DNA of 64,000 bases from Tilletia caries (lineage: Eukaryota > Basidiomycota > Exobasidiomycetes > Tilletiales > Tilletiaceae), in NCBI GenBank assembly GCA_032718865.1, contig JALUTQ010000037.1, forward strand, positions 434,001 to 498,000, given 5' to 3'. Position 1 is the first letter of the stretch. Each line of letters begins with the position of its first letter. The position numbers and the translations under genes were made by a program. Below the pieces are notes generated by a model. That model was not told the origin of the DNA. It saw nothing but the letters and a program-made list of their open reading frames with translations, and searched no databases. Positions 58,490-64,000 of the stretch are shown here, one piece after another.

Positions 58490-59623
58490 GGGAGGGAGAT
58501 GGACCCGGGCAAGTTCTCTTCGACTCAATTTCCTTTCACAAGACGGGCAAGGAGGGCTCTTTTCGCGGATTTTGGAGACGATTAGGGCTTCCGTTCCCTT
58601 ACGGGCCCTTGCGTGAGGCATTCGTTTCGGTTTGCGACCCACCCTTTCTCCTTCTGATGAGGTCGATTTTTTCGCCCCCGACATATCCTCTCATCGGCAA
58701 CCCCTTCACCCTCAGCGGCCTCCTTTCCGCTGCCCATACAGACGCGCACCTTACACACATTCCTTCTCGCCCTCCCATTCCGGCCTATCGATGTGTCTCG
58801 CGCTACCGCCACTTTCCTCCGCGTCTACAACCACGCTCCCCCTCTGCCCCAACTCACCCAATCCGCCTTCACTTCTTCCCACACCTTTTCTTTCCCTCTG
58901 CGACGTCGCACACTGTATAGTTTTTTTTTTTTGTCAATCTCAATTCTTGGTCAACGATGGGCTTCTTCTCGTTCTTGACATGACAATCCCAAAATCTCCT
59001 TCAACCAAGAAGAGTTTTGCTGCCTTGCGAGATCGCTCGTGGGAGTGCGGAGGACAAGAGGGCATCTTCTGCGACGTCTGCTCTAACTGACTGGGACAAT
59101 CAGGTATGTACACACATGACTCGGCGCTCAGTCGGCCAGGAGGCAGGAGCCCCCACGCATACGCCCCCCCTTGCCCCCTCAGCGCGCCGCTCACCAGGCA
59201 CCAGGTCGGAAGTGCTCGAATCTCTGTACCCTCGACCAGCGACCAGCAGGCGCCGCGGCTCTGTAGAACGGACACGAGACGGGCGGCGCGGAACGGTAGA
59301 AGCGGGCTTCCTGCGCCCCGCCTGCCTCCCTTCTTCCTTCTTCCCGCTTTTAGTCTGGGAAAAGAGCCAACTAGCATACGGAACCGCCGGGCAGCACTGT
59401 GGCTGTGCTTGCTCGTACATGCTGGTTAGCAGCGAGCGTGGCCAGTGGCCACTGGCCATAGCTCACAAAGTTACAGTCCCGCAGCGCGCAGCGGACTTGG
59501 GGATAGATAAAGGAAGCAAGGAAGCGATGGGGTGCGCGCTGAGGAGATCCCCCTTCCGTTTTCGCCAGAGTACCTCCCTCATTTCTCCCTTCCTTCCGCC
59601 AGCAAGAAAGAAGTGAAGCAACC
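58490..59623. promoter_or_regulatory. Intergenic region with a 20 bp perfect palindrome upstream of the second four-TM gene
   Basis: 1.13 kb without a supported gene. It begins with the kinase 3'-UTR, then C/T-rich sequence and a T run near 58920. TGGCCAGTGGCCACTGGCCA at 59439-59458 is a perfect palindrome, 166 bp upstream of the ATG at 59624. The last 60 bp are pyrimidine-rich. Confidence 0.5.
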
Positions 59624-62600
59624 ATGGCACGCACGAGGACGTTCTGTTGCTGCATCGTGAGTATTATCGATCTGGCTTCGACGCTGCGCAGAAGCAAGTG
59701 AGCGCCGGAGGACACGCATACAAGCTCAAACCCCGTAGCTTCGCACCTTCTCTGGCTCAGCGACCATCATGTGGCAGTCCATGTACGCGTCGGGGATGTG
59801 CTTTGAGACGCTGGTGAGGATCGGAGCGCCCATGACGATGTTGGGAACAAAGTGACTGAGAGAGTGGACGAGCTTGTTAGCGATCGCGTCTGAGCTGAAC
59901 GAAAACAGGGTCTCGCGCGCTGCTCACCCGTCCATCATGAAGTCGAGAGACGTGCTCTCGTTGTGTGATCAGCTGAGACGCGTTGAACTGGGCAACGACG
60001 GCCTTCAGTACCTCTGCAAGAAGCACCAGTCGAGGGACGAGGTTGTGTCAGCATGAATGTCCTTTTCAAGTGGGGCCAGGGGGCTCATCTGCTGAGAAGC
60101 GGTACTGACCGTTGACAACACTGGGCAAGACGCGCTCATCGTAGTCGGTGCCGATCTCGCGGTAGATGGTCGGCAGCTTGTCGATGGCAGGACGCGACAG
60201 CACACGGCAAGTAATGTTGACCGTTTGCAAGTCTGCGCATCAGATGAAAAAAACGAAAGGGCAAGTTCAGCATACAGTCAAAGCCCACAGGAAGAACACC
60301 AAGTAAACCTCGTTGATGTCCCCCGAGAGAACCTCGTTCCCTAACTCGCACTCACCCTTGGGTTGCAGCATTAGCGCGTCGGAGGGCTTCTTGTTGGGCT
60401 TGCTGTGCTCCGCGGCGGAATTGCTCGAGCATGCGCCCGAGCGGCGTCGGTGGTCATGTTGTGTGTGTGCTGGGTGTCGAGGTGATGGGGAGCGTGATTG
60501 GATGAATAATGCGATGGACTTGGGCGGCGGGAGAAGAGGTGAGCGCGGGCGAGTGAGTGAGTGAGTGAGTGAGGGAGTGAGTGGCTCGTGGCTTTCGGGT
60601 CGCTCGAGCTGATCCTCAGCTGGCTTGAGCTCATCCAGCGTCTGAGATCACCATCACCAGAGAGAGGAAAGGGGGGGTGGGGCCGTGGGGGAGATGAAAC
60701 TCGCTTCCACGGGCTTCCATGGTATTCGATGTCTGTGCGTTGGTGACCAGTGTGCATTACGTCATGGCTGCAGCCACGAAGCTATATAAGAAGCCACCCC
60801 CCCACCCCCAGCAACCGCTCTCTTCTCCCCCCCTTCGGCTCTTCGCCCTCTTGTCCACTCATAGTTTGTTTTGACACGTGACTGTCTGTCGAACAAACTC
60901 TTCGGCGTTAACATCCGTCCCTCGGTGAAAGTTCAAGGTGAGTGTTTTTCATTTTTTTCATTTTTTTTTCGTTTTTTGATCTTTTTGTGTAAAGCTTCCT
61001 GCCGTTTTTCGTTCTGTAGTTTTTGTTCGTTGCCCTTTTTTTCGTTTCTTTTATCTTTTTTTTTGTGACGGACCACGTGACTAGCAGAGTCCAACCACGT
61101 GACCAGCACCGCTCCTTTTTTCATTTTTTTTCCGTCTTTCTATTCTTCCGTTATTATTATTAGATTAAGGACGGACCACGTGACCAGCACTGCTCCTTTT
61201 TTCTTTTCTTTTCTTTTCTTTTCTTTTCTTTTCTTTTCTTTTTCTTTTCTTTTCTTTTTCTTTTCTTTTCTTTTTTTCTCTTTGTTCTTTTTTTTTGCGT
61301 CATCATCGTTAGATCAAGAGACTGACCAGCACCGCTCCTATTTTTTTCTCTTATTTGTTATATACAGATCACCATGGCCGACCCTCCGCCAGCGCCCTGG
61401 ATTGAGTCAGTAGCACCAGAATCGGTGCTGTGGCCTGGCGTAGAAGGCACACAACAGGCGGCGGAGTGGCATAATGCGCCCATCAATACTTGGTTTCTAC
61501 CAAAATACGCCTTCCTGCCGCATCCAGTCGTGCCGGATGAAGATATCGGTGGGATGCTCACGGAGCTGAGCGCTACACTCCGGCAGCGCCTCGACGCTGT
61601 GCCTCCACCACCGCCGCCTCGTCGGACCAGGCCTGGAGAGCGCCAAAACAATTCGCGATTGAAGACGTATCGCACCCGGCTTCGGCCGAATACACAGCAA
61701 AAGGAGGCACTTCGAAAAACGGCTGGAATATTCAGGTGGACGTACAACCGGGCAACCTCAAGGCTCACCCAAACGCCTCTTTAACCAACGTCCGGGAACA
61801 TTCGGTTACAGAGGATGGCCTTCCCCTCATGAACCTGTCATGGGTGACTCCGGTGCCATACAGCATCAGAGAGCAGGCGTGCCTTGAGGCCCATACAGCG
61901 CTTCAGAATGGCTTGGCGGACGTTCGGGACGGCAAAATTCCGCACTTCGAGCTGAAGTTCCGGAAAAAGCGCGCGCTCTTCTCCTCCTTCCGAATTCGGA
62001 AACGTGACTGGGACGGAGGATGCCTCAAGATCCCGAATTTCGGTCTGGGTCCAGGTCAGCACCAGACCAAGATTCAGACGGGGATCGACGTTCCATCGCT
62101 GGAGCATGATGGGGCATGCATCAAGCAGGAGAACGGGTCATGGTTCCTGCTTTGGCAGAAGGACATGGGGGAAGAGAAGATGCGGGTTCCGGCAGCACGT
62201 GGGCCAGAAATGTGCGCCATTGACCCCGGCGTTCGGACATTTGCCACGCTTTACGACCCTTTGCGGGGAATGACGGCAAAGTTTGGCGATGGAGAACACA
62301 AGCGTCTTTTCCGCCTCGGTACGCACTTGGATCAGTTGATCTCGCGATCAACCCAAGCTTCAGCAAAAAAGCGTTACCGAATGCGCCGCGCCGCAAATCG
62401 ACTGCGTGCAAGAATCCGGCATCTGGTCGACGAGCTCCATTGGAAGCTGCGTGGCTACCTCAAGCAAAATTTCGACACTGTGCTGCTGCCAACATTCAAC
62501 GCGCACCAGATGTCTCGGCGAGGTCAAAGGCGGATCGGGTCAAAGACAGTCAGAGCCATGATGACGTGGGCGCACGGTCGCTTCAGAAGCCGATTAAATG

Positions 62601-64000
62601 AAGCTATGGAGGTGGTCGAGGTGGTGGAGGACTGGACATCCAAGGTCTGCTCAACGTGCGGCACGGTCAATCACAGACTTGGAGGCAGCGAAATCCACCG
62701 CTGCCCCGGATGTCTCACAGTCTCGGATCGAGACGTCAATGGCGCGAAAAACAACATTTTTCCTCCACTGGAAATATGATTTTCTCAACCAGTGACAGCG
62801 ACATATTCAATTCTCTTTTTCTTTTTCCTTTTCCTCTACATTTTCTTTCCTCTTTCTTTTTCTTGCGCTTTCGCTTTCTTTTTCCCTTTTCGCCTTTTCT
62901 TTCCGGAAAAATGCCGCCGATCACACGTGATCGGCGTTTGGGAGCTGCACCCCTTTGGCTTCGGCCATTGCACTAGTCTGTATATAGTACAGGCTTGAAA
63001 TGCAGCACTGCGCAGCTCTTATCTGACTGTGTCATACTGGGTGACTTCAAGAATCCCAATGATTTATGCCGGCGTGATTAATGATTAATGGATCAATGGC
63101 GGAGTACTTCAAGAATTGCTCAGCTTTTGGCTGTGAACCCAAGTCAATGACAGGTTCGACAGCGCAAAAAATCTATCCAGGGGCTGGATTGATCTCCTAT
63201 GTGAGGCATTGATTTAATGATCTATGCCACTGTTAATGTTAATGTTAATGATTAATGGCAATTCTTGAAGTCACCCACTACTGTCTTCATCGCTCACAGC
63301 CCACCCGAGCGGGTGTGATCATTCTGAGCATCTTCAACCTGCTCACCGCATCCACCGTGGCTTCGGCCTTGTGAGTTCTCAATTCCAGCAGAGCCTTGCG
63401 ATTGCGCTATACGCTATGCATACTTGATGGACTGACCCCATGCTTTGTTCTGGTATCAGTGCGAATCACCCAAACAGCAAGCTTATTCAACAACTCCTCC
63501 TCTGCGAGAAGATTGCGACCGTCCTGATCTCCACGGCGGGATTCATCGGTGCCGCTTATACCGACCGCCGACTGATCACCTTCTATTCTCGAGCGCTCTG
63601 GGTCGTGTTCGGCCTGTACCTGTTCATCGACACCATCAAGGCCGTCCAGAGTTTCCCTACTCGTCCCGACTTTGAGTCCAGTTGCCGTTCGAAGATGTCA
63701 GAGATTGTCAACCGGCCAGAAGACAAATCGGAAGCGGAGTGGCAAGAGGACATCAAAGCGCTGTGCCAGGTTGCGTATAATCCTATGATCGTCGGGCTCT
63801 CCTCCATGTTGGCATGCGTCAAGGTGATCGAATTCTGGACTTGCATGGGTGAGTTGTCTTTTTCTTCTCCTTACTTTTACCTGGCTGTGCAATCGGCTAA
63901 TGTGCTTACTTCGCCGCCCTTTTTTGTCCCCTCCGGTCAGTCGTATACCGCTACCGTCTGCAACTCGACGAACAGGCGCGCGAAGACGAGGGTGTCGATC
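59624..64000 (+). CDS. Four-TM membrane protein with FCCCIPTR N-terminus (paralogue 2), running off the window, with a 3.64 kb first intron
   Basis: Exons 59624-59656, 63300-63370, 63460-63848 and 63941-64000 (continuing). Exon 1 reads [11 protein letters not shown]; exon 2 starts [15 protein letters not shown], so the junction rebuilds the FCCCIPTR motif of the paralogue at 51562, which has no intron there. Later text is [20 protein letters not shown] and [17 protein letters not shown], then [14 protein letters not shown], giving four hydrophobic segments. Phases fit (0, 2, 1). Intron 1 spans 59657-63299 (GTGAGT...CAG), far longer than any other in the window, and contains several foreign segments. 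Whether it is still spliced is unknown; the coding exons look intact. Confidence 0.78.
59736..59855 (-). pseudogene. Ribulose-phosphate 3-epimerase exon fragment
   Basis: Minus strand reads [20 protein letters not shown] then [17 protein letters not shown], the N-terminal metal-site region of ribulose-5-phosphate 3-epimerase (pentose phosphate pathway), before running into unrelated sequence and a stop. A CAG acceptor precedes it at 59856-59858. Upstream sequence in exon 59927-60013 ends ATGGACGG, which would supply the preceding M-D-G of the family in the right phase. The rest of the enzyme is absent, so this is a fragment, not a gene. Confidence 0.7.
59927..60232 (-). pseudogene. Prohibitin-2 exon fragments
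   Basis: Two exon-like pieces on the minus strand. 60110-60232 reads [15 protein letters not shown] then LPTIYREIG and [12 protein letters not shown]; 59927-60013 continues [26 protein letters not shown] and CAG splice signals join them in the correct phase. The text matches the central SPFH region of prohibitin-2, a mitochondrial inner-membrane scaffold. Directly after VSRL the frame stops and the sequence changes to the epimerase fragment. No N- or C-terminal prohibitin exons are clear; a weak upstream piece (60355-60465) might be the preceding exon. A truncated, out-of-frame remnant. Confidence 0.75.
60551..60577. repeat. GAGT tetranucleotide repeat
   Basis: Five to six tandem GAGT units within the giant intron. 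Confidence 0.7.
60783..61373 (+). promoter_or_regulatory. Probable Fanzor promoter and 5'-UTR intron
   Basis: TATATAAG lies near 60783-60790, followed by a C/T-rich stretch. A GTGAGT donor at 60938 and a TATACAG acceptor ending at 61367 would remove a 430 nt 5'-UTR intron just before the ATG at 61374 (ATCACCATGG context). An imperfect stem AGTTTGTT(T)TGACA/TGTCGAACAAACT sits at 60863-60899. This layout is inferred from consensus signals only. Confidence 0.45.
61066..61345 (+). repeat. Repeated ACCACGTGACCAGCACNGCTCC units and TTTTC tracts upstream of the Fanzor ORF
   Basis: Three related units, at about 61071-61122, 61174-61200 and 61322-61340, share GACCAGCAC, then GCTCCT followed by T runs; the first two carry CACGTGAC. 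Between them is a long TTTTC repeat (about 61201-61276). The same CACGTGAC occurs at 60876. The CACGTG core is an E-box-type palindrome. Confidence 0.6.
61374..62779 (+). pseudogene. Fanzor (eukaryotic TnpB/OrfB-like RNA-guided nuclease), split by one frame change
   Basis: Two overlapping open frames, 61374-61784 (136 residues) and 61736-62779. The first ends with the OrfB N-terminal block [19 protein letters not shown] then [10 protein letters not shown]. The second holds the nuclease: [17 protein letters not shown] (RuvC-I Asp, nt 62222), a long Arg-rich helix, [15 protein letters not shown] (RuvC-II region with Pro where TnpB has Glu), [17 protein letters not shown] with an alternative Glu, zinc ribbon CSTCG...CPGC, and [10 protein letters not shown] (RuvC-III Asp). 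Fanzors are TnpB relatives found in eukaryotic transposons and viruses and shown to act as RNA-guided DNA endonucleases. The frame change near 61780 (one base, or an unrecognised intron) suggests a damaged copy, although every catalytic residue is present. N-terminal about 90 residues are Pro-rich and unalignable by eye. Confidence 0.9.
62780..63038 (+). other. Fanzor 3' flank with palindrome, possible guide-RNA region
   Basis: The first 120 bp are T/C-rich. CGCCGATCAC-AC-GTGATCGGCG (62915-62936) is a 10 bp inverted repeat with a 2 nt centre. In known Fanzor and TnpB systems the guide RNA is transcribed from the ORF 3' end and its downstream flank, so this is the place to look; no RNA is demonstrated here. 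Confidence 0.4.
63039..63276. mobile_element. 238 bp MITE with terminal inverted repeats and 3 bp target duplication
   Basis: Left end GGGTGACTTCAAGAAT, right end ATTCTTGAAGTCACCC: a perfect 16 bp terminal inverted repeat. Both ends are flanked directly by ACT, a possible 3 bp target-site duplication. The interior is AT-rich with repeats of GATTAATG and TTAATG and another copy of ACTTCAAGAATTG near 63103. There is no coding capacity, so it would depend on a transposase elsewhere. Its right end lies 23 bp before the intron acceptor. Confidence 0.8.

Follow-up and report, generated by a model that had tools for sequence, protein, structure and literature searches.

Fanzor2 proteins have been proposed as the bridge from bacterial TnpB to the Fanzor1s that are spread through eukaryotic transposons (PMC10711439). 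The Fanzors of mimiviruses are classed as Fanzor2, a type that Bao and Jurka placed only in IS607-type elements (PMC3627910). Here, we describe a Fanzor2-type element of the basidiomycete Tilletia caries, found in a stretch of 64,000 nucleotides (the window, C32:434001-498000 of a 38.1-Mb genome), where it occupies positions 59692-63006. Its interest lies in the element as a whole, which has one fixed end with a likely guide RNA and pieces of host genes at the other. On balance, we favor the view that it is a degraded member of a mobile Fanzor2-type family of Tilletia, one that is copied as DNA from an anchor at its right end.

The original prediction, made from the letters alone, had called a Fanzor nuclease gene at 61374-62779, and the assignment to Fanzor and the TnpB homologues was borne out: the motifs stand well above chance, and two Pfam domains exceed their cut-offs. 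In the frame 61326-61784, HTH_OrfB_IS605 reaches 40 bits against a cut-off of 21, and in the frame 61541-62779, Cas12f1-like_TNB reaches 44 bits against one of 26.3; a third profile, OrfB_IS605, remains under its own (21.6 vs 30.5). As a gene, the stretch holds up in part, its Fanzor motifs being real and distributed over two frames, with no single open reading frame (ORF). Its extent had to be redrawn as well, the actual unit being a 3.3-kb mobile element, whose most unusual features, a structured right end and a left side pieced together from host genes, the original prediction had missed. The broken coding sequence (CDS) comprises two parts:

61374..61784, plus strand: N-terminal frame of the Fanzor2 CDS, 136 amino acids from the ATG at 61374 and then a stop, with the HTH_OrfB domain.
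61541..62779, plus strand: C-terminal frame of the same CDS, in which the remainder is read; conserved protein only from about residue 73 (RuvC, zinc ribbon).

Against the NCBIfam model guided_TnpB (cut-off 100), the C-terminal frame alone scored 77.1 bits and a longer T. indica relative, P0002, 107.7 bits. The window copy carries the features of the published Fanzor fingerprint (PMC10711439), namely a DPG motif at RuvC-I (AIDPGVRTF), a RuvC-II Glu six residues ahead of the first CxxC (E-DWTSKV-CSTC), and a C4 zinc ribbon with the RuvC-III Asp, covered by the TNB domain. The RuvC Asp residues, on whose retention the original prediction had staked its case, are kept on alignment: among the non-gap rows of alignment A3, the RuvC-I Asp is present in 44 of 44, the displaced RuvC-II Glu in 43 of 43 and the RuvC-III Asp in 43 of 43, and the window row has all three. 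At the canonical RuvC-II place, 43 of 44 rows have Pro and none has Glu. The displaced-Glu pattern was recovered in 48 of the 120 listed homologues and in 5 of 19 copies within the genome, the five being those with a full frame.

The protein belongs with Fanzor2, having an HTH_OrfB N-terminal domain, a compact size of about 473 amino acids and nearest kin among Fanzor2 rather than Fanzor1. The best PDB profile match of the Tilletia Fanzor is the mimivirus Fanzor2 L79 (220 bits), and Foldseek ranked mimivirus Fanzor2 (E 2.5e-21) far ahead of SpuFz (E 1.3e-4, rank 40). No Fanzor1 chain appears among the listed PDB profile matches, an absence that excludes nothing, and the tree of Fanzor relatives was drawn without any named Fanzor1 sequence. 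The nearest proteins come from the same genus, starting with T. laevis P0001 (90% identity over 70% of the query), followed by those of T. indica and T. maclaganii. Judged by its sequence, 61374-62779 is thus a Fanzor2-type TnpB homologue with a broken frame. RNA-guided, programmable cleavage is a reported property of the family and would extend to the window copy by analogy only.

About 20 close copies are present in the genome. A search for full-length versions, suggested along with the original prediction, was successful: 5 of the 19 examined copies keep an uninterrupted frame of 473-547 amino acids, with about 473 being typical and one frame running on to 547. The nuclease of some 190 residues proposed earlier, described as compact and C-terminal, is therefore a fragment of a broken copy, the family protein having about 473. 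The genome also holds a second Fanzor subfamily (L029, L031 and L032, assigned by similarity, in our judgment, to the P0007 subfamily) with a comparable layout. Its common right end, which follows a structured tail (z -3.4), was found at three exact places, all on C34, and with 3 mismatches at one place on C1, and its left ends differ; these three loci are near neighbors, perhaps not independent of one another.

The part of the element that is common, whole or in part, to the copies of the genome ends at a fixed right boundary and is organized as follows, each median identity being measured to the window over those sequences that span 85% or more of the part:

60600..63006, plus strand: Fanzor element core.
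60783..60789, plus strand: TATA box TATATAA, the element's own promoter, read from the sequence.
60938..61367, plus strand: putative intron of the 5' untranslated region (5'-UTR), AAG/GTGAGT ... TATACAG/ATCACCATGG, pyrimidine-rich and poorly conserved (median identity 73.7%, n = 8).
62780..62895, plus strand: 3' untranslated pyrimidine-rich stretch (median identity 82.4%, n = 15).
62896..63006, plus strand: conserved hairpin-rich right end, ending in ...TTGAAATGCAGC (median identity 99.1%, n = 18 including one interrupted copy at 79.8%; fold z -3.2).

The promoter-like signals mentioned in the original prediction are thus present. By the same measure, the two CDS parts reach 97.8% (n = 18) and 96.9% (n = 15), and the promoter region 60601-60937 reaches 90.6% (n = 7). 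Among the five full-length copies, the tail has diverged by a mean of 0.016 per site vs a dS of 0.036-0.065. Its boundary is sharp, with copies stopping at window position 63006; with up to 3 mismatches, the last 32 nt occur at 16 sites of the genome (none for the reversed control), and the last 18 nt have 18 exact matches, or 22 when 2 mismatches were allowed (control, 4). The tail is predicted to fold into three hairpins, one of 9 bp, one with UUCG and another of 9 bp located 11 nt before the end, together with a closing stem, GCUGCA/UGCAGC, in which the 3' strand coincides with the end of the element. Only 1 of 200 shuffles of 62895-63006 folded as well, and the three hairpins reappeared in the further folds tried. 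Altogether, this tail of about 110 nt is the likely scaffold of a guide RNA (omegaRNA), and, should the predicted RNA extend into the flank, its guide would be the sequence starting at 63007. The family has 18 distinct right flanks, and these represent 18 candidate natural guides. Besides these features, the element contains 6 of the window's 18 CACGTG E-boxes, four of them in the promoter and 5'-UTR intron (60875, 61074, 61096 and 61177), one in the tail (62924) and one in the CDS (62196).

At the other side, left ends differ between copies. Outward from the core at about 60600, the window copy carries the 5' region of a host gene on C22, prohibitin fragments and a ribulose-phosphate 3-epimerase fragment:

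60441..60599, minus strand: 5' region of the C22 host gene, antisense by start-codon reading; 98% to C22:536242-536368 and 100% to C22:536360-536384, the match stopping at ...GGCTTTCGGG (L047).
59940..60442, minus strand: prohibitin fragments (59940-60361 and 60362-60442), antisense with introns kept; 96% to C32:941700-942118 and 99% to C32:941338-941418 (gene L039).
59692..59939, minus strand: ribulose-phosphate 3-epimerase fragment, antisense to Fanzor with its intron kept; 98% to C13:455450-455697 (L040).

The epimerase piece is recognized by Ribul_P_3_epim (31.9 bits, cut-off 21.1), and the prohibitin gene owes its name to its best PDB match (Prohibitin, E 3.2e-26), with Band_7 at 22 bits, just under its cut-off. 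Between the two prohibitin fragments, 281 bp of the gene are skipped. A spliced retrocopy of prohibitin was ruled out, with the introns still there and the 281-bp gap lying off the splice sites; the prohibitin and epimerase pieces were therefore captured from DNA. Other copies bear other donors. From C32:923538-925229, which contains the start of the proteasome beta type-7 (PUP1) gene (E 5.5e-22), L009 has some 1.2 kb and L012 no less than 1.6 kb (94% for L012; L009 is 93% to L012), and the left side of L013 combines pieces of C3:1058191-1058437 (90%) and C35:920376-920780 (98%) with a repeat. In L012 and L013, the switch points fall within GT-rich and GAGT repeats. In our reading, the C22, prohibitin, proteasome and C3 pieces are all antisense, with the 5' part of the gene closest to the core. 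Left ends seem to have been trimmed and extended over time, because L037 retains a longer prohibitin piece than the window does.

The window copy also provides a candidate target-site duplication at its two ends:

59684..59691, no strand assigned: candidate 8-bp target-site duplication CTGCGCAG, left copy, abutting the left end at 59692.
63008..63015, no strand assigned: right copy of CTGCGCAG, next to the right end.

A repeat as long occurred in 2 of 500 shuffles, and the left end at 59692 was set independently by homology. No inverted repeat of at least 14 nt joins the two ends of the element.

Taking these features together, we propose that a full-length unit would encode the RuvC nuclease of about 473 amino acids behind its own promoter, and that its conserved right end would yield a structured RNA whose scaffold stops at the element edge, so that flanking DNA would act as the guide. 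The element would be copied at the DNA level, by whatever route, from an anchor at the right end; the left end is seemingly unrecognized, and copying would run on or switch into other DNA, leaving host pieces on the left. Several observations weigh against this proposal. A target-site duplication was found in one of six copies with a defined left boundary, the other five having none convincing, and mosaic junctions may account for some of the left boundaries tested. Leftward repetition of a right-flank 8-mer was seen at only 1 of 19 right ends, which indicates no general duplication, in a scan that covered unequal left stretches and in L037 and L038 fell short of the left end. The donor places C22:536k, C32:923k, C32:941k and C13:455k have no Fanzor match today, and for this reason transduction of the left flank is something that we can only infer. 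Nested insertions blur several copies. As for the tail, its closing stem is unstable, with other pairings forming when 20 nt of flank are added or the first 19 nt are removed, and covariation lends it no support, the copies being nearly identical. Its covariance model had no match in eight divergent loci; besides the window, it detected only the family copies L021 and L017, with none in L018, L019, L011 and L026. No Rfam match with E up to 1 was obtained in 59000-64000.

The main competitor, possible yet clearly less probable than right-end-anchored copying, is a Helitron (Helitron2-like) moved in trans by RepHel, with the 3' hairpin as the rolling-circle terminator and the host pieces as captures of the Helitron type. 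In its favor, the Fanzor1 elements CRe-1/2/3 of Chlamydomonas have been assigned to Helitron2, their 3' ends being intact and their 5' ends truncated, with duplications of 7-19 bp (PMC3627910). Helpers may exist, as the genome holds 60 Helitron_like_N matches, and a hairpin does lie 11 nt from the right end. Helitrons insert between A and T and end in CTRR. The Tilletia element has no CTRR end, and the first base of its right flank is G in 15 of 18 cases and A in 3, never T or C, which agrees neither with insertion between A and T nor with the Helitron2 target TTTT followed by T/C (PMC3627910). The right end is also not visibly shared with a partner: a search with its last 18 nt and up to 2 mismatches, which left aside the ends of Tilletia Helitrons themselves, returned only the family, L037, which lacks a Fanzor, and an unrelated repeat at four sites. 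These four sites, which have ACAGGTTTGAAATCCAGC, were rejected as a partner's end, as they belong to one repeat that continues beyond that point when aligned with its flanks. The Fanzor2 ribonucleoprotein might itself drive the right-end-anchored copying and thereby collect host promoters and gene starts, through an RNA-guided break repaired by synthesis leftward from the right end with microhomology switches; we regard this version as doubtful.

Insertion from an RNA template, as in LINEs, with the 3' end recognized by a reverse transcriptase and 5' chimeras produced by template switching onto RNAs, would account for the fixed 3' end, the ragged 5' ends and the one 8-bp duplication. It is nevertheless unlikely, given that the prohibitin and epimerase pieces are antisense with introns kept, that the putative 5'-UTR intron is retained in copies and that copying extends to DNA lying upstream of the TATA box. 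Carriage as a passenger of Crypton (tyrosine recombinase) elements, which appears more unlikely still, is brought to mind by L038:2130-4490 (minus strand, on C4), where a 786-amino-acid Crypton-type recombinase ORF (NDC10_II, 165.8 bits; GCR1_C, 53.5 bits) lies between Fanzor and tail, by the insertions in L010 and L015 within some 20 bp of that place, and by Mucor MCi-2A, which bears a partial Crypton gene (PMC3627910). The L038 insert, however, bears no similarity to the ones in L010 and L015, and the insertion place is uninterrupted in other copies, so that separate nested insertions into the pyrimidine-rich stretch are the simpler explanation. Least probable of all is a Fanzor2 transposon of the IS607 type, mobilized by a serine recombinase, in spite of canonical Fanzor2s being IS607-borne (PMC10711439): Resolvase PF00239 has no match in the whole genome, in a search that was positive in 10 of 14 control genomes, and the right flank is GG in just 6 of 18 cases. 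The element is therefore not a present-day IS607, with an extinct helper as the conceivable exception.

Some copies of the family present further peculiarities. Unlike insertions in L010, L015 and L038/L011 (about 0.8, 1.2 and 8.2 kb) all lie near the equivalent of 62799-62815, in the pyrimidine-rich stretch ahead of the tail, which may be a hot spot or reflect something systematic. L037 (C5:897600-907500) has the left and right ends of the family but lacks a Fanzor match, and it becomes similar to the family again right at the stop codon; it was considered as an autonomous partner and rejected, its largest ORF matching no Pfam family convincingly. L023 (C5:1947000-1956900) contains two Fanzor copies in opposite orientation with one common right flank, an inverted duplication of an insertion. 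In T. indica, two different Fanzors, P0003 and P0006, are annotated after one and the same stretch of a host BET (extra-terminal) domain, PF17035, which scores 42.7 bits in P0003 and of which P0006 has, by eye, just the end; the cause is either gene-model read-through or a host exon captured ahead of Fanzor.

The insertion of the element 59692-63006, in sense, into intron 1 of a gene for a tetraspan-like membrane protein was confirmed, as the original prediction had it for the nuclease gene. The host gene model has four exons with GT-AG introns and an open protein of 248 amino acids:

59624..59656, plus strand: host exon 1 (MARTRTFCCCI...), tetraspan-like membrane protein.
63300..63370, plus strand: host exon 2, from the gene model and T. 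walkeri P0122.
63460..63848, plus strand: host exon 3, from the gene model and T. walkeri P0122.
63941 to beyond the window end, plus strand: host exon 4, from the gene model.

The insertion is placed in intron 1 because T. walkeri P0122, which starts MARTRRFCCCIPTRAGV, joins the residues of exons 1 and 2, and because this intron, 3643 bp long next to introns of 89 and 92 bp, shrinks to 319 bp without the Fanzor element and to about 75 bp when the element at 63037-63278 is removed too. The closest record to the host protein, one of T. controversa, shows 100% identity across 96% of the protein, and its tetraspanin match is sub-threshold (16.7 bits vs 32.1, Pfam). Host exon 3 alone retrieved no homologue, probably owing to a length limit, as the whole protein did match. 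A short element of its own occupies 63037-63278 in the same host intron; it has inverted ends (CTGGGTGACTTCAAGAAT...) and TA flanks, and the genome has several further near-full copies of it. T. controversa P0121 has a different start (MAILEVTHYCLHRSQ), equal to the window translation from 63255, inside this short element; its gene predictor was therefore probably misled by it.

In a broader sense, the Tilletia family offers a Fanzor2 outside IS607, in a basidiomycete, on a one-ended element that is free of terminal inverted repeats (TIRs) and has some 20 close copies, five full frames and a candidate guide RNA. As it records successive captures of host genes, the copying of Fanzor elements becomes comparable across Tilletia genomes. 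If Fanzor2-driven copying were true, a eukaryotic RNA-guided nuclease would be its own one-ended replicator, shuffling host genes. In the open-licence literature, part of it consulted as excerpts, we found no report of a Fanzor2 with a fixed right end and a mosaic left, and no paper there combining Tilletia with Fanzor or TnpB.

Among known systems, the mimivirus Fanzor2 (L79, PDB 9b0l) is the best match of the Tilletia Fanzor in both sequence profile and fold, and the predicted fold match includes an N-terminal part (model residues 5-98) outside the TnpB-aligned range. The two share only 18% identity over the fold alignment, and the Tilletia genome has no serine recombinase match, in contrast to the IS607-type elements to which Bao and Jurka confined Fanzor2. 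Cyanobacterial TnpBs of the class termed pro-Fanzor (PMC10711439), here P0073 of Geitlerinema and P0100 of Xenococcus, share the DPG motif and the displaced Glu in A3, but are prokaryotic and fall outside the Tilletia branch of the tree. For the layout, the closest precedents are the one-ended Fanzor1 elements CRe-1/2/3 and MCi-2, together with the Fanzor2* elements. CRe-1/2/3 have intact 3' ends and truncated 5' ends, with short extra 5' sequence in some copies, and MCi-2 has subfamilies defined by the 5' region and no TIRs (PMC3627910). Both nevertheless encode Fanzor1; CRe elements are tied to Helitron2 ends, with duplications at 10-70% of loci per family, and the derivation of 5' sequence from pieces of host genes is not among the features described for CRe or MCi-2 in the sections consulted (PMC3627910). 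The Fanzor2* elements of Chloropicon and molluscs likewise place a Fanzor2-type protein in a non-IS607 eukaryotic element (PMC10711439); theirs have TIRs and target-site duplications, whereas the Tilletia element, in a fungus, has one fixed end, a mosaic left and no TIR of 14 nt or longer.
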